Positions 70-23,380 of a DNA stretch of 23,401 nucleotides are shown here, one piece after another. Source of the DNA: Lentzea aerocolonigenes (GTDB taxonomy: Bacteria; Actinomycetota; Actinomycetes; Mycobacteriales; Pseudonocardiaceae). The position numbers and the translations under genes were made by a program. The notes under the pieces are model-generated. The model was not told the origin of the DNA. It did not search any database and was given only the letters and a program-made list of their open reading frames with translations. Numbering within the stretch: position 1 is the stretch's first letter; each line of letters starts with the position of its first letter. The stretch spans positions 1 through 23,401 of the forward strand of contig NZ_JYJG01000394.1 in the NCBI RefSeq assembly GCF_000955955.1. The letters are read 5' to 3'.

Positions 70-3000
70 CTAGAGAGCGCCCGCTTCCGCACGAATCTCC
101 TGCAGCGCCTCGGCTTTCGTGATGCCGAGGCGCTCAGGCATGCCCAGGATCCCCGCGAGCCGCCGGACGTCCGGGTCGCCCAGATCGATCCGTCCGCGGA
201 TCATCTGCGCGAGCCCCAGCAACCGTAGAGCCTTGTCGTCACGGCCCTGCGCGTGCCGCACGAGCGCGAGCAGCTCCGTCACGCCCGCCAGATCCGGCAT
301 GTCGCCGCGTTCCGACGTCGTCCGCACGGCCACCGCGACGCACGGCTCGGCGTCGTCCGGCCTGCCCTCGGCGATCGCGATCCGCCCGTCGAGCATCGCG
401 CCCCACTCCGTGACGAACCCGTTCAGCACCGGTGAGACCGCGGCCATCTCCTTGAAGCCGGCGCTCAACCGGCTCGCCTCCGCGACCCTGCCCGCGCGCA
501 GCACGACCTCCGCCCGCGCGTAGCCGGTCATGACGGCCATCTGGTCGTTGCCGATGGCCTGCGCGAACTTCTCGGCCTCGGCGACCTCGCGCGCGGCCGA
601 CTCGTGGTCGCCGAACCGGGCGTACTCGACCGCGAGCCGCCACCGCTGCTGAATCGCGTCGTCCTGCGACCGCAGCTCCAGCGCCACGTCGAGACCCTTG
701 CGGTACAACGCGATCGCGGCCTCGTTGTCGCCCGTGTGCGAGATGAACGCGGCCTTCATGCCGAGCGTCATCGCCGCGCCCCACCGGTCGCCGACGGCCA
801 CGAACTGGTCGTACGCGCGGTCGCGGGCCACTTCGGCGCCGTCCAGGTCGCCGTTGTCGACCAGCATGAAGCTCAACGCCCAGGACGCCGCCGCCCGTGC
901 CCACGCGTCCTCGCTCGCCGCCGCCCGCGCGACCTCCTGAGTCGCCAGCTCGCGGTTCTGGCTGAGGAACGCCAGCATCGGCAACGCGATCGCGAGTGCC
1001 GGGTACTTCTGGGTCGCACCGGTGCGCACGCAGTCGTTGATCACCGTCGCGGCCTCGGCCGTGTCGGGCAGCCCGGGAATCGCGGCCATGATCAGCTGCA
1101 TCGCGCGGAACGAGGCGTACAGGTCCTCCGGCAGCGCGTCGCCGAGTGCCAGCACTTCGCGCACCGAGGACTCCGCGCGTTCGTTGTCGCCCTTGACCAG
1201 CCAGTACCAGAAGGTACCGCTGAGCAGGTCCGCCGCCAGGCCGACCTCACCGTCGTCGATCGCCCCGCGCATGGCCGCCACGATGTTGTCCTGCTCCGCC
1301 TCGTACATCGAGATCGCCTCGATCTGGCGGGCGGTGCGGGTCAGTGGTTCCCACGTCTCGGTCACGTCCCGGTAGTAGCGGCGGAACCGGTCGACGATCT
1401 CGCGCTTCTCGCCGGATGCCTCGAGCTGTTCGTCCGCGTAGACCCGGATCGTCTCCAGCATCCGGTACCGCGGCTCACCTTCCAGCTCGTAAACGTCCAC
1501 AATGGACTTCTCGACCAACGACGTGAGCACGTACAACGCGTCGTCGTGGCAGACGTGCTCGATCGCGGCGAGGTCCGCTCCGGCCGGGAACACCGACAGC
1601 CGGCGGGCGAGCTGCAGTTCCTCGGGGGTCAGCAGGTCCCAGCTCCACTCCACGACCGCTCTCAGCGTGCGCTGGCGGGGGAGTGCGGTGCGGCTGCCCG
1701 AGGTCAGCAGCCGGAACCTGTCGCCGAGCCGCTGGGTGATCTGCCGGACCGTCATCGACCTGAGCCGGGCCGCCGCCAGCTCCAGCGCCAGCGGCATGCC
1801 GTCGAGCCTGCGGCAGATCTGCTCCACGTCGTCCACAGTGGACTCGTCGAGCTGGAACCCCGGCTTCACCGCGCTCGCCCGGTCCAGGAACAGCTTCACC
1901 GCGCCGGAGCCGGCGAGCGGACCGACCGGGCACAACGACTCGCCGTCGATCGCCAGCGGTTCCCGGCTGGTCGCGAGCACCCGCAGGTTCGGCACCCGCC
2001 GCAGCAGCTCGCCGGTGAACTCCGCGGCCGCCGTGATCAGGTGTTCGCAGTTGTCCAGCACCAGCAACGACTCGCCGGCACCCAGCACCTCGGCGATCCG
2101 CTCCATGCCCTCGGACCGGCGGCGCAACGGATCTCCGCCGAACGTCAGGTCGAACGCACCGAGCACCGCGCCCGCGAGGTCCTCCTGCGCCCGCACCCCG
2201 GCCAGCGCCGCGAACCACACGCGGCCCTTGGCGTGCAACGGATGCCGTGCCGCGGTCTCGGTGGCCAGGCGCGTCTTGCCCGCACCGCCCGGCCCGACGA
2301 GCGTCACCAGTCGTGCGCTGTCGAGCTGGTCGTGGATCTGCGCGAGCTCGTCGTCGCGGCCGACGAAACTGGTGAGCCGCACCGGCAACCGGTCGACCGC
2401 GGTGCGCGGCTTGAGCTCACCGCGCAGAGCCGCCAGGTGAACGTCCTGCAGCTCCTGCGACGGGTCGACGCCCAGCTCGTCGGCGAGCCTGCCGCGGACC
2501 TCCTCGTAGACCCGCAGCGCGTCGGACTGCCTGCCCTGCGCGCACAACGCCCGCATCAGCAACCCGGCCAGGCGTTCCCGCAACGGGTGCTTCTCGTGCA
2601 TCGCGGTCAGGGCGGCGACGTCGAGATCGCCGGTCTGGAAGCGCTCTTCCTCAGCGGCCAGCCGGGCTTCGTCCAGCCGCACGGCCGCTGGTGCCGCGAA
2701 CGGCGCCTCCCGCACGTCGGCCAGCGCCTCGCCGCGCCACAACCCGAGCGCCTCGTCGAGCCGTCCGGCCGCGCGCAGCCGTTCGAACCGGAAGACGTCC
2801 ACGTCGTCCTGGGCGATCGCGAGCCGGTAGCCGCCGGGCTCCAGCGTCACGTCCGGGCAGACCTTGCGCAGCCGCGAGACGAGCGACTGCAGGGCGTTCG
2901 ACGCGTCCGCGGGCGGTTGCCCGCCCCACAGGTCGTCGATCAGCGTGGTGGTCGCGACGGGACGGCCGGGGTCGAGCGCGAGACGGGCCAGGAGCATGCG

Positions 3001-3078
3001 GACACGGGCACCACCGATGTCGACCGGTGTGCCGTCGTCGGCCTCGACCGTCGTCGGGCCCAGCAATCCCACGCGCAC
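70..3078 (-). CDS. AfsR/SARP-family transcriptional regulator with NB-ARC ATPase and TPR repeats
   Basis: Large cytoplasmic regulator of about 1002 residues. In order: an OmpR-type winged helix (about 1-90, beginning RVGLLGPTTVE), a bacterial transcriptional activation domain (about 92-225), an NB-ARC/STAND ATPase with Walker A GPGGAGKT (262-269) and Walker B-like LLVLDNCEHL (about 338-347), then a long alpha-helical TPR-like C-terminus. Proteins of this architecture switch on secondary-metabolite or developmental genes after nucleotide-dependent oligomerisation. I chose the GTG at 3078 over an in-frame GTG at 3099 because GGAAAG lies 8 nt upstream of 3078 and the family normally begins right at this beta strand. 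It follows the phosphotransferase gene by about 30 nt on the same strand, so the two are probably co-transcribed. No biosynthetic cluster is visible in the window, so the target is unknown. Confidence 0.93.
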   Translation of the reverse strand: MRVGLLGPTTVEADDGTPVDIGGARVRMLLARLALDPGRPVATTTLIDDLWGGQPPADASNALQSLVSRLRKVCPDVTLEPGGYRLAIAQDDVDVFRFERLRAAGRLDEALGLWRGEALADVREAPFAAPAAVRLDEARLAAEEERFQTGDLDVAALTAMHEKHPLRERLAGLLMRALCAQGRQSDALRVYEEVRGRLADELGVDPSQELQDVHLAALRGELKPRTAVDRLPVRLTSFVGRDDELAQIHDQLDSARLVTLVGPGGAGKTRLATETAARHPLHAKGRVWFAALAGVRAQEDLAGAVLGAFDLTFGGDPLRRRSEGMERIAEVLGAGESLLVLDNCEHLITAAAEFTGELLRRVPNLRVLATSREPLAIDGESLCPVGPLAGSGAVKLFLDRASAVKPGFQLDESTVDDVEQICRRLDGMPLALELAAARLRSMTVRQITQRLGDRFRLLTSGSRTALPRQRTLRAVVEWSWDLLTPEELQLARRLSVFPAGADLAAIEHVCHDDALYVLTSLVEKSIVDVYELEGEPRYRMLETIRVYADEQLEASGEKREIVDRFRRYYRDVTETWEPLTRTARQIEAISMYEAEQDNIVAAMRGAIDDGEVGLAADLLSGTFWYWLVKGDNERAESSVREVLALGDALPEDLYASFRAMQLIMAAIPGLPDTAEAATVINDCVRTGATQKYPALAIALPMLAFLSQNRELATQEVARAAASEDAWARAAASWALSFMLVDNGDLDGAEVARDRAYDQFVAVGDRWGAAMTLGMKAAFISHTGDNEAAIALYRKGLDVALELRSQDDAIQQRWRLAVEYARFGDHESAAREVAEAEKFAQAIGNDQMAVMTGYARAEVVLRAGRVAEASRLSAGFKEMAAVSPVLNGFVTEWGAMLDGRIAIAEGRPDDAEPCVAVAVRTTSERGDMPDLAGVTELLALVRHAQGRDDKALRLLGLAQMIRGRIDLGDPDVRRLAGILGMPERLGITKAEALQEIRAEAGAL
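1831..1843. repeat. 13-bp palindrome GTCCACAGTGGAC inside the SARP gene
   Basis: Perfect palindrome identical to 6630-6642. A near copy with one changed base, GTCCACAATGGAC, lies at 1495-1507 in the same gene and is read in the same frame (Ser-Ile-Val-Asp). Confidence 0.6.
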
Positions 3079-3086
3079 ACGTCCAG

Positions 3087-3092
3087 CTTTCC
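3087..3092 (-). promoter_or_regulatory. Ribosome binding site deciding the SARP start
   Basis: GGAAAG on the minus strand, 8 nt before the GTG at 3078. The alternative GTG at 3099 has no purine-rich stretch at a suitable distance. Confidence 0.5.
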
Positions 3093-3108
3093 AGATCACG
3101 AGCGGCGA

Positions 3109-3975
3109 TCAGGCGAGAACGTCCAGTGCACGCGTGAGCGCGTTGGTGATAAGGGACTCCATCGCCTGGTCGGTGCTGCCGCGCGGCACCCGTTCCACCA
3201 GCATGATCGAGTACAGGTACGCCTGGTAGGCGGCGAGCCGGACGCGGGCGGAGTCGGTGAACTCGAAGCCGTAGCTCGTCAGGAAGTCCTCGTCGTCCTC
3301 GATCGTCCGGAACAGGGCGAGCGACACGAACTCGGCGACCGGATCACCCCAGAAGGCCCGCTCGCCGTCCACGAGCCCGGTCAGTCCGGTGTCGGTGAGG
3401 ATGTTGCCGTCCCAGAGGTCGAAGTGCACCAGCGCAGGCCGCTTGACCTCGTCGAACACGGCCGGGTCCAGTGGGATGCCCGGCAGTTCGACGCCGTATC
3501 GCCGAGCGTCGGCCTTCACGGCGTCGAACATCGCGAGGAACGCGGCGGTCCACGTTGTGTGCAGGCCGAGCTGCGGGTAGCCGAAGCCGGGCCCGGTGAC
3601 CTCGTGCAACGCCGCCACGGCCTGGCCCAGCTGACGACGGACGAGCGGCCGGTCGACGTCCTCGCGGCCGAACAGGGGCCGGCCGGGCAGCCACGTCGTG
3701 AGCAACGCGTCGCTGTTCACCAGAGCGCGGGAGAAGTCGGTGTGCACGACCTCCGGCACGGGCGCGACCGCGTGCCCCAGCCTGCAGAACAACGCCTCGG
3801 TGCGCATGAGATTGCGTTCGTAGGTGAGTCCTGGCCGGCCGGACGGCGAGACCTTGAGCACGAAGTCGCCCTCGGGCGAGGTCACCCGGAACACCTCGTT
3901 GTACGTGCCGCCACCCAACGGGCGCACGGTGAACTCGGTCAGGTCTGCCTGGGCCAGAATCAGCTCCACCGTCAC
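3109..3975 (-). CDS. APH-family (aminoglycoside phosphotransferase-fold) kinase
   Basis: A 288-residue small-molecule kinase of the APH/choline-kinase fold. Visible motifs: a glycine-rich nucleotide loop GGGTYNEVF (21-29), the ATP-anchoring lysine in FVLKV (Lys41), the catalytic loop HFDLWDGN (His184, Asp186, Asn191) and the metal-binding segment LVDGE (Asp203 to Glu205), standing in for the usual IDWE. Length is normal for the family. The substrate cannot be told from sequence; the APH fold also covers fructosamine, homoserine, hydroxyurea and macrolide kinases, so resistance should not be assumed. It starts with GTG, only 23 bp from the divergent LanC-like gene, and is followed by the SARP regulator on the same strand. 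A few residues at the N-terminus could be mis-assigned because no Shine-Dalgarno sequence is evident. Confidence 0.85.
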   Translation of the reverse strand: MTVELILAQADLTEFTVRPLGGGTYNEVFRVTSPEGDFVLKVSPSGRPGLTYERNLMRTEALFCRLGHAVAPVPEVVHTDFSRALVNSDALLTTWLPGRPLFGREDVDRPLVRRQLGQAVAALHEVTGPGFGYPQLGLHTTWTAAFLAMFDAVKADARRYGVELPGIPLDPAVFDEVKRPALVHFDLWDGNILTDTGLTGLVDGERAFWGDPVAEFVSLALFRTIEDDEDFLTSYGFEFTDSARVRLAAYQAYLYSIMLVERVPRGSTDQAMESLITNALTRALDVLA

Positions 3976-15603: not shown

Positions 15604-18600
15604 TCAGCCCATCAAGTACTGCATCGACCTGGCCATCACGTCGTTGCGGATCGCCGCGTCGGTGATGCCCTCGAAGCCGAACCCGAAGTACAGGGTGTCG
15701 GCGGTCTTCACGATGGCGCCCTCCGGGAACCCGGCCGCCGTGGTGCGGGTGAAGTTGTTGCCGTTCGGCGCGCTGCCGTCGGGCGGACCGGTGACGGCCC
15801 AACCGTCCAAACCGGACTCGAACGACGTGGATCCCTCACCGGTCGACACGACGACGTCGTCGACGAACACACCGAGCCCCTGCGTCGCCCAGTCGCTCGC
15901 GTAGGCGATGGACACCTCGACCTGGCTGCCCGCGTAGGCGGTCAGGTCGACGTTCCACTGCTGCCAGCCACCGGATCCGCCGGACGCCGCGTTCCACACA
16001 CCCGTTGTGCCGGTGGGCGAACACGTGCCGTCGGGGTTGAGCGTCTGGTAGTGGTCGAGCTGCGGATGCAGGTCGCGCCACCCCTCCGGACAGCTGTCGC
16101 CAGTCGCCGTCGTCGTGTGCCCGTTGGTGTCGGGCAGCGTCGTCCAGTTCGTGCCACCTGCGGTGCGCGCTTCGACGAACACGTGGTCCCACGCGGGCTC
16201 GGTGTCGTACGACGTCCAGAACGACATCTGCGCGCCACCGGCCGGAACCGTGATCGTGCGCGTCAGCCGCTTGTACGACACGTCGCTGATCTGCGAGTAC
16301 ATGTAGTAGTCGCCGAAGTGCGGTGCGAACGGGCCACCGGGGCGGTCCCAGGCCGCGGCGATGTCGCTGCGGAACTGCGGGTACTGGTTCACCGGCAGCA
16401 GACCGCTCGTCGTCAGGAACGACGCCGTGTGGTCCTGGTTCTGCGCGCTGTCGGTGCCGTTGAGGGTCAGCGAGACGCCGGTCAGCGGGTTCGCGACGCC
16501 GTTGACCCCGAACGGGTCGCCGTTGTCGTCCTGGCCGGTGCCCTCGTTGATGATCGCCGCGCCGAACCAGTACTCGATGACGTCGTTCACGCCGTCGCCG
16601 GAACCGGACAGCGGGCGGCACCGCAGGTCGACGTCCGGGAGCGTGCTGCACTGCTTGTTCTCGAACGGGTCGTAGAGCTGCGTACCGTGCCCGCCGGCGT
16701 ACTGGTGCCCGGCGTACTTGCCGGTGTAGAGCACCTTGCCGCCCTCGTTGAGGTAGTCGCGGACCTCGAACAGCTCGGTCTGCGCCAGGCTCGACGCGTT
16801 GCCCGCGCCCCAACCGGGTTCGCGCGTCACCACGTCGTCACCGGTGTACCAGATGACGGCCTTGTAGTGGCTCAGCACACCGAGTGCGTCAGGTGCCTTG
16901 CGCCCGTTGGCATCCACGTCGTACACGTCGCTGCTGATGCCGTTGGCGGTGAGCGCGTCGGTGTAGTAGTTCACGTACTTCGGCGCGGTCACGCCCTGGT
17001 TCGGCGACGCGCCGGTGTAGTCCTCGGCGGACAGGACGAGCACCGGGTCGTGCGACTCGGAGACGGCGCGGTAGGTGAACGACCTGCTGGTCTTACCACC
17101 GCCCTCGAACCACACCTTGACCTGGTCGCCGGGGGTCGTCCCGGTCACCGTGCCGCGCACGACGTGGTAGTAGTTCGCGTTGCCGATGCCGTACTTCTCG
17201 CCACCCTGCCACTCGGACGTCGACGCGCTCTGCACCGGCCCGTTGCCGATCTGCCACTTCGCGGTGACGGCGCCGAGCGACTTCTTCGCGAGCACCCGGA
17301 CCTCCTGCGGGTCGCCGTAGGAGACGTCGAACGTGAAGTCCAACATGGACAGTGGCGCGTTCTCCTGGTCGATGTCGGCCTGGTCGAGGTAGAACGGCTC
17401 GACCGTGATGCCGACCGACGACTTCGGGTTCTCCGGGTCCTGCGCCGACATCGCCTGCGACAACGCGAACGGCAGCGTCTTCTGGAACTCGGCCTCCACG
17501 AGCGCCTCGTCGTCGGGGAAGACGAAACCACACCCCTCGCAGCCTTCGCTCAGCTCGGGCGTGAAGGCCACGGTCCCGGCGTGAGCGTCGGCGTAATCGG
17601 TGGTCTCGCCGTTCGTGACGTACAGCTCGTCGGAGCTGATTCCCGGGTCGAAGCCGGGAATCGCGGGCTTGGCGTCGGTGCCTGCCATGGCGACGTAGAT
17701 CGGGTTGTCGGCCTCGGGCGACCCGGTCTGCCAGCCCTGCGGGTAGAGGATCTGCTGCGCGGCGGAGTGCCAGTTGGTCTGGAACTTCGGCTTGATCCGG
17801 TTCAGCAGGCCCTGCATGGCCTTGGTCTCCGGCTCGGACGCCGCGCCGGTGCCGCGGTAGGTCTCGCTCGCGGTCGCGGTCGACGAACCCTCGTTGTCGT
17901 AGTTGAAGTGCTCGTCGAAGTTGCGGTTCGGGTCCACGCCGTCGCCGACGGTGATCTGGCCGTTGCCGTCGTTGTCGCGGAGGTTCTTGCGCCACAACCG
18001 TTCCACGTCGAACGTGTACTGGTAGCCGTCCGGGTTGGCGACGAGCACGAACCAGAGCTCGGTGCTCTTGAGGAGGTCCTTGATCTCCTTGTCGTTGGCC
18101 TTGAAGCGGTTCACGTAGTGGTTGAGCAGCCTGCGGTTCACCTCGGTGCTGATCCACTCGCGCGCGTGCTGCGTGGAGGAGTAGAGCACCGCCGGTCGGC
18201 TGCCGTCGCGCTGCCCGTTGGCGCCCTGCGTGACCTTGAGCGCGATGATCTCCCGTCCCTGCCCGGTCTTCCCGAGCACTTCGAGCTTGACGAGGTTGGG
18301 GTTGTTGCGCGCCAACGCGTACAGCTGGTCGCGAATCCCGCCAGTCTCGTCGTAGGACCGCCACACGTTGAATCCGTACGCGGCCTGCTCGGCGGCGAGC
18401 TGCCTGGTGGTCTTGCCGTCCTTTGTCTTCTTGAGCTTCGCCTCGATCCCGCGTTTCGCCAGGTCCTTCTGCTGGGCGGCGTCGAGGACGAGCTCGACCT
18501 CGACCTTGTCGCCCGCCGTTCTGGCGCCGGCGATGTCCAGGCCTCGTCTCGACAGATCACCCGCCTGTTTCGGGCTCACCTGGGCGACGTAGACGTCGAG

Positions 18601-18693
18601 AGGGTCGCTCGGCGGGGCGGCTTGGGCGGGTGACGCCGCCGCGCCTCCGATGACGAGTGCCAGTGCGGACAGGAAAGTCGTGGACCGCTTCAT
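15604..18693 (-). CDS. Secreted M14 zinc carboxypeptidase with long C-terminal extension
   Basis: A 1029-residue exported metallopeptidase that removes C-terminal residues from peptides. A Sec signal peptide (KRSTTFLSALALVIGGAAA, cut near SPAQA/APP) is followed by a propeptide-like segment (about 26-100), then the M14 domain. Zinc ligands are STQHAREW (His176, Glu179) and NWHSA (His309); substrate binding is by VDPNRNF (Asn256, Arg257); the catalytic Glu is in FTPELSEG (Glu380). The remaining about 600 residues include a beta-rich part, a Rossmann-like region (VLVLSAEDYTG ... VIWYTGDDVVTREPGWGAG) and a C-terminal region resembling M6/immune-inhibitor-A sandwich domains (MSFWTSYDTEPAWDHVFVEA, VFVDDVVVS). 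GGAGGA 5 nt upstream sets the ATG at 18693; a longer in-frame reading to 18726 lacks a ribosome site. Monocistronic, ended by the hairpin at 15549-15588. Confidence 0.93.
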   Translation of the reverse strand: MKRSTTFLSALALVIGGAAASPAQAAPPSDPLDVYVAQVSPKQAGDLSRRGLDIAGARTAGDKVEVELVLDAAQQKDLAKRGIEAKLKKTKDGKTTRQLAAEQAAYGFNVWRSYDETGGIRDQLYALARNNPNLVKLEVLGKTGQGREIIALKVTQGANGQRDGSRPAVLYSSTQHAREWISTEVNRRLLNHYVNRFKANDKEIKDLLKSTELWFVLVANPDGYQYTFDVERLWRKNLRDNDGNGQITVGDGVDPNRNFDEHFNYDNEGSSTATASETYRGTGAASEPETKAMQGLLNRIKPKFQTNWHSAAQQILYPQGWQTGSPEADNPIYVAMAGTDAKPAIPGFDPGISSDELYVTNGETTDYADAHAGTVAFTPELSEGCEGCGFVFPDDEALVEAEFQKTLPFALSQAMSAQDPENPKSSVGITVEPFYLDQADIDQENAPLSMLDFTFDVSYGDPQEVRVLAKKSLGAVTAKWQIGNGPVQSASTSEWQGGEKYGIGNANYYHVVRGTVTGTTPGDQVKVWFEGGGKTSRSFTYRAVSESHDPVLVLSAEDYTGASPNQGVTAPKYVNYYTDALTANGISSDVYDVDANGRKAPDALGVLSHYKAVIWYTGDDVVTREPGWGAGNASSLAQTELFEVRDYLNEGGKVLYTGKYAGHQYAGGHGTQLYDPFENKQCSTLPDVDLRCRPLSGSGDGVNDVIEYWFGAAIINEGTGQDDNGDPFGVNGVANPLTGVSLTLNGTDSAQNQDHTASFLTTSGLLPVNQYPQFRSDIAAAWDRPGGPFAPHFGDYYMYSQISDVSYKRLTRTITVPAGGAQMSFWTSYDTEPAWDHVFVEARTAGGTNWTTLPDTNGHTTTATGDSCPEGWRDLHPQLDHYQTLNPDGTCSPTGTTGVWNAASGGSGGWQQWNVDLTAYAGSQVEVSIAYASDWATQGLGVFVDDVVVSTGEGSTSFESGLDGWAVTGPPDGSAPNGNNFTRTTAAGFPEGAIVKTADTLYFGFGFEGITDAAIRNDVMARSMQYLMG

Positions 18694-18698
18694 TGCGT

Positions 18699-18704
18699 TC
18701 CTCC
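18699..18704 (-). promoter_or_regulatory. Ribosome binding site of the M14 carboxypeptidase
   Basis: GGAGGA on the minus strand, 5 nt before the ATG at 18693, placing the start directly before the signal peptide. Confidence 0.7.
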
Positions 18705-18770
18705 GGGGCGTGCGTGGTCGACGCAAGACCCGACGACGCTACGCCGACCAGCCGTTACATTGATGAGCCT

Positions 18771-18828: not shown

Positions 18829-19385
18829 TCACCGCAACACGAGTCCTGGCAACCGATAGCGCGTCCCCTGGATCACCCTGGCCGCGGCGCGCACGTGCTC
18901 GTCGGAGTCCCAGCTCCAGCCGAACGCGTTGGCCAGCCGGTTGACGATGTTGAACACCGCGTTCACGTGCAACGCCTCCACGAGCGCGTCCGCGGGCACA
19001 CCGGCCTGCCGCACCGCGGCGGCATCGGCCTGCGTGACCTCGCCGCGGTCAGCAAGGTGATGAAGGTGATCACCGCCGCCAGTTCCGGCCGCACGTCGTG
19101 ATGTCCCGCCAGCCTCGCGGTCTCGGTGTGGACGCACACGCAGAACGGGCATTCGTTGAGCCCCGAGGACACCGCGGCGAGGTACTCGCGCTCGGCCACC
19201 GTCCAGAACGACGGCCCGCGCAGCACTTCCTGCCCGTAGTCGAAGAACGGCCGGCCGAAGAAACCAGGCCTGTGCATCGCCGTTTTGACGACGTCGTCCA
19301 CCTCGTGCCCCATGACCGTGACCACGACCTTCTGGAACGCACGCGCGGCCCGGCCGTGGCCGCGTTCCAGGACGTCCAGCCTCAT
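18829..19385 (-). pseudogene. Frameshifted AhpD/carboxymuconolactone-decarboxylase-like peroxidase-related protein
   Basis: The first frame encodes MRLDVLERGHGRAARAF, HEVDDVVKTAMHRPGFFGRP and the CMD/AhpD active-site motif NECPFCVCVH, with the redox CxxC. It then reads AAVITFITLLTA before losing similarity. Another frame continues as EVTQADAAAVRQAGVPADAL, VEALHVNAVFNIVNRLANAF and GWSWDSDEHV to the stop at 18829, which is the usual C-terminal half of this family. The switch lies within about 19041-19050. The gene spans 557 nt; one added base gives 558 nt, a normal 185-residue protein, so a single-base deletion or sequence error is the simplest explanation. No slippery heptamer is seen. The start overlaps the previous stop as ATGA. 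Members are alkylhydroperoxidase-like reductants, sometimes cytosolic antioxidants. Confidence 0.85.
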
Positions 19386-19666
19386 CGGAGTGCTCGCAGA
19401 CCCGCTTCGAGGCGGTCGAGGGCGGCTCCCACGGCCGCGGCGACGGTGACCTCGAAGATCTCCTCCTCGCCGCACCCGGCGGCTTTCAACGCGGTGATGT
19501 CCTCTTCGGACACCCGGTAGGACGTGTCCCGCACGGACCTGACGTATCCGGTCCACACGCCGGGTGCGGTGCCAGAGGCCGCGGCGTCGCGGAGGCCGGG
19601 ATCCGTGACACCGGGCCCGTCGAGCACAGCCGCGCGCAGTGCGGTCAGACGGTCGGCTGGGTGCAT
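19382..19666 (-). CDS. Small CMD-like partner protein without CxxC
   Basis: A 94-residue cytoplasmic protein beginning MHPADRLTALRAAVLDGPGV, with a helix-rich core (YVRSVRDTSYRVSEEDITAL, KAAGCGEEEIFEVTVAAAVG). The pattern resembles the helical carboxymuconolactone-decarboxylase fold (the EEEIFEVTVAAAxG helix), but the CxxC motif is absent; the one Cys is in AAGCGEEE. It sits between the subtilase and the CxxC AhpD-like gene, overlapping the first by TGATG and the second by ATGA, so the two CMD-type proteins are made together and may form a heteromer. AAGGAGGA 3 nt before the ATG confirms the start. Family assignment is moderate. Confidence 0.82.
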   Translation of the reverse strand: MHPADRLTALRAAVLDGPGVTDPGLRDAAASGTAPGVWTGYVRSVRDTSYRVSEEDITALKAAGCGEEEIFEVTVAAAVGAALDRLEAGLRALR

Positions 19667-20868
19667 CACTCCTCCTTCCGGTACTCCCACTCGTACGGCC
19701 TGATGGCGGGATCGCCATCGGGGGCGGTGAGGGCGTGGAACGCCGTCCAGGCGTCGGTCTTGTCCTTCGCCATCTTCGCCGCGATCACTCCGCCGAGCTG
19801 GGCGGCGGCGCAGGAAGTGCCCCGCCACGACACGAACCCCGACTCAAAAGCCCCGATCCGGCCGGTCTTGAGTTCGACCTCGGGAGCGGCGAGGTAGGAG
19901 CTGACGAACTCACCGGCCGGACCAGGGTCGACCGTGCAGGTCACCCACGGGAGGTCAGGGCTGTAGTCCTGGCCGTACGACACGGCCGAGGGCGATCCGG
20001 TGAACGGGGTCGGCAGCCCGGCGGCGATGACGCTGGGCAGCGCGGCCGGCCAGGTGGGGGAGTGGCGCGTGACGCCGAGGTCGGACGTCATGGCCGTCGT
20101 CGCGCCGTGGTTGCCCGCGGCCGCCACGACGGTGATGCGGCGGCTGAGCCGTTCGACCGCCCGCTCGATGATCAACGGCGCCTTGCCGTCGTAGGTGCGG
20201 CACCCGCTGGCCAAGACCAGCAGCTGCACCCGTTCGTCCGGCTCGTCCGTGTAGAACTGCTCCAGCTTCTTGACCACGGACCACGCGGAGGCCTTGCCCC
20301 TGCCGTTCAGCGCGGCCCTGGCGACGAGAGTGGCGCCGGGCGCCTGCTGCAGGATGAGCCCGGCCATGAACACGCCGTGCCCTTCCTCGAAGTAGGGGAC
20401 GGTCGCTTCCTGGGTCTCGAACTTGTCGAAGCCGACCGCCTCGATGGCGTGGTCGGGGATGTCCGGGTGGTCGAAGATCTCGGTGTCGAGCAGTCCGATC
20501 CGCACGCCGCGACCGTCGTCGCCGGTCAGCCACCCGTCCGGCTTGGTGGTCGGGTCCGGATCCCAGAGCGCGTGGCTGCAGGTCTGCGGGTACGCGCCGA
20601 ACATGCTGGACATCTCCCGGTTCTTGCCGAGCAGCGGGATCCAGCCGCCGGACCGCCCGCCGATCCGGGCGCGCACCTCGGTCAGCACCGGGTCGAGATC
20701 GCTGACCTCCTCGCCGTCGGCGTACGTGAGTGCGAGGAGGGTCAGGTCGAACGCGTGTGCGCTGCCCGCTTGCTTGCTGGTGATCGCGAGCTCGTCGAGC
20801 ACCTGCTGCACGGCGTCGAGGTGGGTGGTGTCGACGACGAGTTGACTGGCTTCCTCTGCACTGGTCAT
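19666..20868 (-). CDS. S8 subtilisin-like serine peptidase, apparently intracellular
   Basis: A 400-residue subtilase. Catalytic residues: Asp128 in VRIGLLDTEIFDHPDI, His164 in EEGHGVFMAGLI, oxyanion Asn253 in VVAAAGNHG and Ser352 in WRGTSCAAAQLGG. The about 110-residue N-terminal part (TSAEEASQLVVDTTHLDAVQ) has no signal peptide or membrane segment, so it is probably cytosolic or exported another way. GGAGG 5 nt upstream fixes the ATG at 20868; a longer open frame to 21003 runs into the divergent gene and is rejected. It is first of a three-gene unit with the two CMD-like proteins and divergent from the TPR-CHAT protease by 67 bp. Subtilase-CHAT pairs occur in actinobacterial conflict-type loci, so a proteolytic cascade is possible but unproven. 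Confidence 0.93.
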   Translation of the reverse strand: MTSAEEASQLVVDTTHLDAVQQVLDELAITSKQAGSAHAFDLTLLALTYADGEEVSDLDPVLTEVRARIGGRSGGWIPLLGKNREMSSMFGAYPQTCSHALWDPDPTTKPDGWLTGDDGRGVRIGLLDTEIFDHPDIPDHAIEAVGFDKFETQEATVPYFEEGHGVFMAGLILQQAPGATLVARAALNGRGKASAWSVVKKLEQFYTDEPDERVQLLVLASGCRTYDGKAPLIIERAVERLSRRITVVAAAGNHGATTAMTSDLGVTRHSPTWPAALPSVIAAGLPTPFTGSPSAVSYGQDYSPDLPWVTCTVDPGPAGEFVSSYLAAPEVELKTGRIGAFESGFVSWRGTSCAAAQLGGVIAAKMAKDKTDAWTAFHALTAPDGDPAIRPYEWEYRKEE

Positions 20869-20922
20869 GTCAGCCTCCGGAGTGAGTTCCCGCTGAACCG
20901 ATGCCGCCGCGCGTCGCGTTGA

Positions 20923-20928
20923 TACCTT
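20923..20928 (+). promoter_or_regulatory. Possible -10 of the TPR-CHAT gene, leaderless
   Basis: TACCTT in the 67-bp divergent gap 20869-20935, 7 nt before the ATG at 20936, the same spacing as the dgdA -10 element. There is no convincing -35. The rest of the gap holds the subtilase ribosome site (GGAGG, 20874-20878) and no clear palindrome. Confidence 0.35.
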
Positions 20929-20935
20929 GGTCATC

Positions 20936-23380
20936 ATGCTGGCGGGATCGGCGTTACACGCGGCGCGCGAGGCGATGCACCTCGCCGACGTCGACCCGGT
21001 CAAGGCGATCCCGCTGGCCTCCCAGATCGTCGCCGCAGCTCAGGGTGATGCCGAGGCCCAGGCGCTGGCCGAGCAGGCGTGGGGCCACGCGCTGGCCCAG
21101 ACCGGGCAGGTCGACCTCGCTGTCACCCATCTGCGCCGCGCGGTCCGGCTGGGCACCGGCGAGGCGGCGGCGGAAAGCCGGATGAAGCTCGCGTTCGCGC
21201 TCGTGCACCAGGGTCGTGCCGCGTCAGCCCTGCGCGAGCTGGATCTGGCGGTTCCGGCGCTGGACGCGCGTGCTCGGGGGCAACGGGCCGTGATCCTCTA
21301 CCACCTGGGCAGGCTGGACGACGCGTTCGCCGACTACCAGGTCGCCGAGCGCGCCATCCGCCGCAGCGGCGACCAGCTCCACCTGCAGCGGGTCCTGCTC
21401 AACCGGGGTGTCCTGCAGGCGGAGCGCAACAACTTCGCGGCGGCCACCAAGGACCTGCTCGAAGCCGACCGGCTGGCGCGTGAGCTGGGCCGCCACCTCG
21501 TGGTCGGCATCATCGCGGAGAACCTCGGCTTCGTGGAGGGCCGCCGTGGTGACGTCCCCGCCGCGCTGGCGCATCTGGACAGGGCCGAGGAGATCATCGC
21601 CCAGCACGGCGGTCAGCTGGCACCCGTGCTGCTGGACCGCGCCGAGCTGCTGATGTCCGTCGGGCTGGCCGGCGAAGCACGCGACCACGCCGCGCAGGCG
21701 ATCACGGCGTTCCGGGACGACGGCCGCCAGCTCAAGGTCCCCGAGACCCGGCTCCTGCTCGCCGAGGCCGCTCTGCTCGCCGCCGACCCGGCCGCGGCCG
21801 GTCAGCACGCCCGCGCCGCTCTCGCCCAGTTCATCCGACAGGGGCGTGACCATCACGCGGCGCTGGCCCGCGCGACGGTGCTCCGTGCCGCGTTGAGTGC
21901 CGGAAAGCCGTGCCGGATCAGCGATCCGGAGGGAATGGTGGCCGCCCTGCACGGTCGCCCGGCCGCCGTCGTGCAGGCACACCTCGACCTGGCCGCCGTC
22001 GCAGGCCGCCGAAGACAGCCGGCTCGCGCGGCCGAGCACCTCGCCATCGCGAGCCGGGCGCGGGGGAGTGGCCCGGCCACGCTGCGGGCGCGCGGCTGGT
22101 ACGCCCAAGCGTTGTTGCTGGAGCGCACCAACCCCCGCTCCGCTGCTGCCGCGGCGCGACGAGGGCTTCGCGTTCTCGACGAGAACCACGCCTCGCTGGG
22201 CGCCAGCGATCTTCGCGCCCACTCGGCGATGCATCGTGCTGACCTGGCCTCGCTGGGCCTTCGGGTCGCGTTGAGCTCCGGCAAGCCCGCGGACGTGTTC
22301 GAGTGGGCGGAACGGGGGCGTGCGAGCCGGTTCCTGCAGCACTCCGTTCGTCCGCCTGACGACCCTGAGCTGGCCTCGCTCCTGCCCTTGTTGCGCGCCA
22401 CGGCTCTCGAACTGGAGAGCAGTCCCAGTCCACGGCTCCGGCATCGCCAGGTCGAGCTGGAGCGGCAGATCAAGAACCGCAGCCGCCAGCTGCGGGCTGT
22501 CACCGGTGGTCCCGCCGACCCGGTGCGACCGTCCTCATTGGACCAGCTGGCCGACGGCCGCCTGGAACTGCGCACGGTCGGTCCGGTCGGCGAGATCGGC
22601 GATCTGCTGGCGCGGGTGCCGTTCGCGTTGCGGCACCTGGCTCACCGGCCACGCCCGGAGATCGCCGAGCTGCTCCGCTCCACCGCGTCGAAGCTCGACT
22701 CGCTGCTCCTGTCCGGGTGCGACCGGCCGCTGGTCGTGGTGCCGACCGGAGTGCTGCACGACGTCCCGTGGTCGACTTTGCCGTCGTGCCAAGGCAAACC
22801 GGTCGTGGTCTCGCCGTCGGCGACCCTGTGGCACACCGCCTCTTCCCGGCCTGCTCGCCCGCGCACCTACGCGGTCGCGAGCGGTCCGGGCCTGCCGGGT
22901 GCCTCGGCGGAAGCTGCGGCCGTGGCCGAGATCCACCAGATCGCCAGCCCTGCGTCCGCGACCGTCGACGACGTCCTGAAAGCCCTGAACACGGCCAGCA
23001 CCGTGCACCTCGCGGCCCACGGCCGGCTCAACCCGGACAACCCGCTGTTCTCCGCGCTGTCCCTGCACGACGGCCCGCTCGTGGTCTACGACGTCCAGCG
23101 CCTCGACCAGGTCCCGGAAACCGTGATCATGGCCGCCTGCGACGCCGGCCGCTCGGTCGTGGTGTCCGGCAACGAACTCCTCGGGCTCGCCGCGACGTTC
23201 CTGGAACGCGGCACCTCGCAGCTGATCGCCCCGGTCGTGCCGGTGCCGGACGCCGAGACCGAGGAGCTGATGGTCGCGGTGCACCGGCGGTTGCGCGACG
23301 GCCGGACGCCCGCGGAGGCGCTGGCCGAGGCCCAGCAGGAACTGGGCCAGCCCAGCGGTTTCGTCTGCGTCGGCGCCTAG
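20936..23380 (+). CDS. TPR-CHAT caspase-like protease
   Basis: An 814-residue cytoplasmic protein. Residues about 1-460 are helical TPR-like repeats (for example AQTGQVDLAVTHLRRAVRLG, YHLGRLDDAFADYQVAERAI, RRGDVPAALAHLDRAEEII); about 485-525 is a charged helical linker; about 590-814 is a CHAT domain. The caspase-type dyad is visible as VHLAAHGRL (His695) and IMAACDAGRS (Cys735), followed by the family-typical ELLGLAATFLERGTSQLIAP. Known relatives include the TPR-CHAT subunit of Craspase and bacterial effectors of abortive responses, so the TPR part likely senses a partner that triggers proteolysis. The ATG at 20936 is favoured over a TTG 9 nt upstream. No ATPase, sensor or reverse transcriptase partner lies in the window; the DNA downstream is cut off after 21 bases. 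Confidence 0.93.
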   Translation: MLAGSALHAAREAMHLADVDPVKAIPLASQIVAAAQGDAEAQALAEQAWGHALAQTGQVDLAVTHLRRAVRLGTGEAAAESRMKLAFALVHQGRAASALRELDLAVPALDARARGQRAVILYHLGRLDDAFADYQVAERAIRRSGDQLHLQRVLLNRGVLQAERNNFAAATKDLLEADRLARELGRHLVVGIIAENLGFVEGRRGDVPAALAHLDRAEEIIAQHGGQLAPVLLDRAELLMSVGLAGEARDHAAQAITAFRDDGRQLKVPETRLLLAEAALLAADPAAAGQHARAALAQFIRQGRDHHAALARATVLRAALSAGKPCRISDPEGMVAALHGRPAAVVQAHLDLAAVAGRRRQPARAAEHLAIASRARGSGPATLRARGWYAQALLLERTNPRSAAAAARRGLRVLDENHASLGASDLRAHSAMHRADLASLGLRVALSSGKPADVFEWAERGRASRFLQHSVRPPDDPELASLLPLLRATALELESSPSPRLRHRQVELERQIKNRSRQLRAVTGGPADPVRPSSLDQLADGRLELRTVGPVGEIGDLLARVPFALRHLAHRPRPEIAELLRSTASKLDSLLLSGCDRPLVVVPTGVLHDVPWSTLPSCQGKPVVVSPSATLWHTASSRPARPRTYAVASGPGLPGASAEAAAVAEIHQIASPASATVDDVLKALNTASTVHLAAHGRLNPDNPLFSALSLHDGPLVVYDVQRLDQVPETVIMAACDAGRSVVVSGNELLGLAATFLERGTSQLIAPVVPVPDAETEELMVAVHRRLRDGRTPAEALAEAQQELGQPSGFVCVGA

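Follow-up and report, generated by a model that had tools for sequence, protein, structure and literature searches.

Contig NZ_JYJG01000394.1 (C32) of Lentzea aerocolonigenes, 23,401 bases long and one entire contig of the 10.2-Mb host genome, carries a TPR-CHAT cysteine protease gene and an S8 subtilase gene transcribed away from each other; the whole contig is called the window below. The arrangement raises the question of whether two proteases encoded back to back work together, and how their action would be set off. The original prediction, made from these letters alone, had placed them with two CMD/AhpD-type genes in one undescribed proteolytic stress or conflict module. We found that the two protease genes recur together in many soil actinobacteria, well beyond this genome, while the CMD genes do not. 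The features of the pair are as follows.

20936..23380, plus strand: TPR-CHAT cysteine protease (Pfam CHAT 126.7 bits against a cut-off of 24; TPRs)
About 21077-21715, plus strand: TPR region of the TPR-CHAT gene
22724-23350, plus strand: CHAT domain of the TPR-CHAT gene
23018-23020 and 23138-23140, plus strand: CHAT catalytic His and Cys codons, each kept in 73 of 75 aligned CHAT rows
20869..20935, no strand: divergent intergenic region of 67 bp between the ATGs of CHAT and S8
19666..20868, minus strand: S8 subtilase, 400 aa (Pfam S8 48.6 bits against a cut-off of 21.8; catalytic domain from about residue 105)
20487-20485, 20379-20377 and 19815-19813, minus strand: codons of the subtilase triad Asp128, His164 and Ser352

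As predicted, the CHAT protease is intact, with its His and Cys conserved, and is fused to TPRs; the subtilase has a complete and conserved Asp-His-Ser triad, and the two genes diverge over 67 bp, measured from ATG to ATG. Both reading frames are open, with an alternative TTG start of the TPR-CHAT frame at 20927. The CHAT protein falls within PF12770, its domain lying above the cut-off and its His-Cys pair being present; the alignment rows were the CHAT proteins of public loci with E under 1e-60 and five CHAT genes of the host genome. Among solved structures the CHAT sequence matched only designed TPR proteins. The subtilase Asp, His and Ser were conserved in 82, 82 and 81 of 82 aligned rows (79 public loci and three from the host genome), close relatives found by sequence search are in Lentzea, and no signal peptide was evident on inspection by eye, no predictor being applied.

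A 29-row subtilase alignment, run against the GTDB species genomes, brought up 116 relatives, and the best 80 loci were kept; these include L102, a metagenome-assembled genome of Candidatus Schekmanbacteria in which the subtilase itself was not found. A TPR-CHAT gene lay within 10 kb of the subtilase in 75 of the 80, divergent in 59, codirectional downstream in 12 and downstream on the other strand in four. Four of the five loci without CHAT have a contig end less than 900 bases away on one side, and the fifth is a remote outlier. Within the host genome the same profile gave 20 matches at E up to 1e-5; the top-scoring two adjoin CHAT genes, and of the seven contigs that match CHAT, none carries any of the other 18. 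A broader profile, applied to the fetched contigs alone, added a third host S8 relative adjoining a CHAT gene (L130). The 75 loci and the distribution of matches in the host genome therefore show that CHAT and this subtilase form a unit, mostly divergent, which travels together; they also rule out that the two are neighbours by accident, a reading to which we give next to no credence. The window subtilase found a match in 15 of 298 genomes of the order (E up to 1e-20, in a wider draw). The CHAT gene is split across two overlapping frames in L036, L040, L048 and L151, by frameshifts or sequencing errors.

The other two members of the predicted module lie behind the subtilase.

19382..19666, minus strand: CMD1, CMD-like, 94 aa, without CxxC (Pfam CMD 14.4 bits, below the cut-off of 23)
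18829..19385, minus strand: CMD2, AhpD-like, CxxC codons 19151-19140, in two frames (18963-19385 and 18829-19152)

The sequence does contain the TGATG and ATGA overlaps said to couple the subtilase to these genes. The claim of two CMD/AhpD-type proteins, one with CxxC, held in part: the CxxC is there and the N-terminal piece of CMD2 passes TIGR00778 (31.4 against 27.8 bits), but both proteins stay under the Pfam CMD cut-off (19.7 bits for the CMD2 piece, below 23) and the CMD2 frame is broken. An intact relative aligns to 19047-19421 and then, in another frame, to 18832-19056, with the frame change near 19047-19056; the break is either a real frameshift or an assembly error, and three other Lentzea genomes have CMD2 as an unbroken frame. 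Relatives of both CMD1 and CMD2 stand beside the subtilase in four of nine window-type loci, all Lentzea (the window, L025, L027 and L029), and in genera other than Lentzea, 72 public loci, some of them truncated at contig ends, yielded no CMD pair. Among the 24 Lentzea genomes searched, a CMD2 orthologue at 83-100% identity occurs only in the L025, L027 and L029 genomes and the window genome; looser relatives (about 40-44% identity) are located elsewhere in 14 of the 24. These counts rule out the CMD pair as a core part, and it may rather be a late accessory. The co-occurrence search that the original prediction proposed thus upheld one half of its four-gene module, the TPR-CHAT protease with the subtilase, but not the CMD half. 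The peroxide or thiol input that it ascribed to the CMD pair is at this stage conjecture.

Further companions of the pair are an extracytoplasmic function (ECF) sigma factor gene and a gene for a protein of about 150 aa, here called B. Neighbours were collected by clustering 1141 open reading frames with a GC-frame filter and then by profile searches, in which small or odd genes can be missed. An ECF gene was found in 55 of the 80 loci, B in 64, both in 53, either or both in 66 and neither in 14; the ECF identity comes from Pfam and NCBIfam on one example, and ten of the 64 B matches, counted all the same, are weak (nine Saccharopolyspora and L094; E 1e-10 to 8e-6). The 14 loci with neither are eight window-type Lentzea loci, Saccharothrix L030, Amycolatopsis L033, Dactylosporangium L077, the contig-end-cut L049 and L075, and the outlier L102. 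No ECF gene lies within 10 kb in the window-type relatives L023, L024, L026-L029 and L031, the family profile found none in the window, whose 3' side is cut by the contig end, and profile searches found no B near window-clade pairs. In all 11 Herbidospora and Acrocarpospora loci (L035, L036, L037, L038, L040, L043, L047, L048, L050, L051 and L053) B was present and no ECF was found in the stretch examined; these are probably a second kind of reduced module.

This context is not wholly new, and the word undescribed in the original prediction was too strong. The ECF54 passage of a 2022 review (PMC8999054) describes carboxypeptidase, subtilase and CHAT genes as a conserved surrounding of sigma group ECF54 and puts forward proteolytic regulation; the ECF54 label is used here from gene context. 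Protein B may be the review's 'carboxypeptidase'. Of four B proteins scanned, three match no Pfam or NCBIfam family and that of Saccharopolyspora has a weak CarboxypepD_reg match (20.4 bits, below the cut-off of 32.3; E 0.00067). However, an M14 carboxypeptidase gene stands beside the window-type pair in six Lentzea genomes, the window's included, so this feature of the ECF54 context is open to another reading. The best model of B, from a 36-row alignment, has two N-terminal helices and a beta-sandwich, with a mean predicted local distance difference test score (pLDDT) of 82 against 70-77 in the other four models; no clear fold match was obtained (best E 0.033), an absence that shows nothing. 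We suppose that B holds the sigma factor. Of 396 genomes sampled across the phylum, 31 gave a match to B.

Within Lentzea, the pair of the window exists beside a complete relative. The full core module, CHAT divergent from S8-ECF-B, is present in 24 of 24 genomes (the host, L123 on contig C91, and 23 others, L131-L153; in L151 the core CHAT is split in two frames), the B profile matches in all 24, and such constancy, in our reading, favours a role of the core version in housekeeping or development. The window-type subtilase occurs in nine of the 24. In the host genome, window and core copies share 26% identity in S8 and 38% in CHAT. In trees, which left out sequences less than half covered (1 of 107 for S8 and 2 of 99 for CHAT), the window clade groups with Saccharothrix and then with Asanoa, Amycolatopsis and Microbispora lineages, and all 24 core S8 sequences fall together in a clade of their own (support 1.0). 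The trees and the identities rule out a recent duplication of the Lentzea core pair, and by the trees the window pair is a separate deep lineage.

The host genome holds further members of the family. A NACHT-like NTPase gene lies directly behind the core CHAT (L123:9028-12363; Pfam NACHT 24.5 bits, just below 26.7), and, within the stretches fetched, 4 of 23 other Lentzea core loci have a relative (40-51% identity) in this position. An ECF-B-CHAT set lies on one strand in L124 (contig C18), its ECF truncated at the contig start; L130 (contig C292) has an S8/CHAT/ECF set, and L125 (contig C75) and L126 (contig C549) have ECF-B pairs, with no CHAT or S8 in the stretch read.

The window pair could be a second input to the core switch, acting in trans on the core ECF sigma factor and B, so that one regulon would answer to two protease pairs. 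Core ECF and B are kept in 24 of 24 Lentzea genomes, and therefore all nine genomes with the window pair have a possible trans partner; the ECF or B genes near most CHAT/S8 loci (66 of 80) also fit. Yet the low identity to the core copies and the separate branching argue against it, no promoter motif common to the window and core intergenic regions was seen on inspection by eye, and we hold this reading to be quite unlikely.

Gain and loss of the pair can be followed with the help of the gene on its other side.

15604..18726, minus strand: M14 zinc carboxypeptidase, a syntenic neighbour and rate yardstick outside the unit

The M14 gene is present in 10 of 24 Lentzea genomes, six with the pair beside it and four without. 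In one of the latter, G310, homology to L023 ends at the end of a DUF4062 gene and resumes 71 bp on, before the M14 gene; where G310 has these 71 bp, L023 holds 3,980 bp with CHAT and S8. As judged from this alignment the pair is absent from G310 as one block, the only empty site shown. The DUF4062 gene (L023:4231-7227 and L194:1-1346) flanks the pair on the CHAT side in L023 and is one edge of the empty site in G310. In the G298, G309 and G310 genomes, similarity to the window picks up again where CMD2 ends (18829-18833), which suggests that in the window genome the CMD genes are part of the variable block. Farther from the pair, the window encodes a regulator with BTAD, AAA and TPR domains (70-3099) and an APH-type phosphotransferase-like protein (3109-3975). 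As to carriers, 50,697 phage records held no relative of the subtilase, and a plasmid collection gave six records with distant matches, none spanning 80% of the query; on these searches, carriage of the subtilase by phage or plasmid is rejected.

We compared evolutionary rates, taken as the ratio of nonsynonymous to synonymous changes (dN/dS) from pairwise Nei-Gojobori counts at syntenic loci, which GC-rich codon use can bias. The window-type S8 gave 0.40-0.85 (mean 0.60, 10 pairs), the highest of the five genes compared in 10 of 10 pairs. The values were 0.19-0.26 for window-type CHAT (mean 0.22, 7 pairs), 0.22-0.33 for M14 (mean 0.29, 10 pairs), 0.21-0.30 for CMD1 (6 pairs) and 0.09-0.34 for the CMD2 piece (6 pairs; 0.09-0.26 among the three unbroken genomes). 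With dS at 0.31-0.70 for S8, 0.48-0.70 for CHAT and 0.26-0.38 for M14, S8 is not simply older. Core copies had means of 0.25 for S8, 0.09 for CHAT and 0.11 each for ECF and B (9 pairs each, two of the CHAT pairs using the larger piece of the split L151 gene). S8 thus outpaces CHAT about 2.8-fold in both versions; the distinctive feature is that, gene for gene, the accessory pair exceeds the core about 2.4-fold.

A fast-changing protease in a patchily distributed pair is what an anti-phage or other conflict system might look like, in which the TPRs would meet a foreign signal and the pair would kill or arrest the cell or cut an invader protein. Presence in nine of 24 genomes, the empty site in one relative and the top rank of S8 in every comparison fit this picture. 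However, core S8 exceeds core CHAT by the same factor, so a fast S8 is a trait of both versions; with variation dispersed over the whole protein and no dN/dS ratio above 1, the rates speak against an arms race peculiar to the accessory S8. A PADLOC scan of the four proteins had no model for CHAT or either CMD, and S8 matched one generic 'subtilase' model (E 2.3e-8). With no specific PADLOC system and no phage relatives of the subtilase, the defence or conflict role that had been predicted gains no support from these searches, and we regard it as unlikely. The raised dN/dS of both genes relative to the core copies, the broken CMD2 and the minority presence could instead mark a remnant that lost its sigma factor and B, is weakly constrained and is on its way out, CMD2 being part of the decay. 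This we consider improbable: both window frames are open, nearly all aligned rows retain the catalytic residues, dN/dS stays under 1, and CMD2 is unbroken in the three other genomes, where the piece compared has a dN/dS of 0.09-0.26.

How one protease might control the other is suggested by the predicted structure of the subtilase.

20608..20844, minus strand: subtilase prodomain, residues 9-87, beta-alpha-beta-beta-alpha-beta, a pro-subtilisin prodomain in the predicted model
20557..20607, minus strand: linker, residues 88-104, predicted flexible (pLDDT under 50 at residues 91-98), a candidate processing site

The modelled subtilase is a pro-subtilisin, whose prodomain, which we take to be of the family named I9, would cap the catalytic domain, with the flexible linker between them. 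Across eight sequences, the block of residues 76-100 has 16 of 25 invariant positions, the most of 16 blocks (next best 14). A zymogen-like subtilase is compatible with regulated proteolysis, and a pair that stands free and is patchily present points to joint action of the two proteases, as a self-contained cutting system that can be switched.

We tentatively favour, at somewhat short of an even chance, that the locus is a sigma-less offshoot of the actinobacterial CHAT/subtilase/ECF/B module and encodes a two-protease cascade, CHAT sensing and subtilase executing. Both proteins would be cytosolic, with the TPR-CHAT protease as sensor and initiator; on a signal it would cut the subtilase prodomain or the linker, and the freed subtilase would be the executor, cutting proteins of the cell or of an invader. 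The output of the complete module would be the sigma factor held by B, and the window version may act through proteolysis directly or, in trans, through the sigma factor and B of the core module. A more specific form of the idea, which we find rather doubtful, is that the pair has been freed from the sigma switch and is now a stand-alone, gained-and-lost proteolytic response, in which TPR-CHAT unlocks a cytosolic pro-subtilisin zymogen that diversifies after a changing target, a cysteine initiator acting on a serine executor.

Several points weigh against the sigma-less cascade. Subtilisin prodomains usually self-process, so CHAT need not be the activator, and conservation of the block 76-100, which takes in the last part of the prodomain, is not necessarily the sign of a cut site. 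The faster rates of both genes are also what relaxed constraint would produce. The 3' flank of CHAT is missing here (contig end 23401), and an adjacent sigma factor or B is excluded only through relatives. Further, the ECF54 passage of the review describes peptidases that keep the sigma factor off (PMC8999054).

To our knowledge, most bacterial CHAT proteases are without known substrates, and a near-constant, zymogen-like protease neighbour offers a concrete, testable substrate proposal for a whole family of CHAT proteases in actinobacteria. The relatives that bear ECF and B tie the pair to a transcriptional switch that has been described, in that passage of PMC8999054, only from gene context. 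A literature search, which missed most subscription papers, found nothing on the CHAT/subtilase pair itself and, on its neighbourhood, only the ECF54 sentence of that review; as far as the search reached, the sigma-less version with its empty site, the zymogen model and the rate pattern are new.

Among known systems, CMD2 resembles the AhpD/CMD peroxidase-related proteins (TIGR00778, TIGR01926) in its CxxC and in an N-terminal piece above the TIGR00778 cut-off, but differs in its broken frame, and CMD1 differs in having no CxxC and staying under the cut-off. In the Csx29/Csx30/CASP-sigma system of type III-E CRISPR, a TPR-CHAT protease frees an ECF sigma factor that an inhibitor holds (PMC10028731). 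Csx29 and the window CHAT are alike as TPR-CHAT proteases; the window protein fails the NCBIfam Csx29 model NF041237, however (24.9 bits against a cut-off of 300), no CRISPR effector was found among the window's open reading frames examined, and the available part of PMC10028731 describes no subtilase partner, unlike the pair here. Another is the ECF54 neighbourhood as outlined in PMC8999054, which shares CHAT and subtilase genes with the window, and most other loci of the family also have an ECF sigma gene (55 of 80); it differs in that close relatives of the window pair are without a nearby sigma gene or B and some have the CMD pair instead. The subtilase itself shares 15-25% identity in structural alignments with pro-subtilisins (pro-subtilisin E and pro-Tk-subtilisin) and with Bacillus intracellular subtilisin precursors, and unlike these it is partnered with a TPR-CHAT protease.

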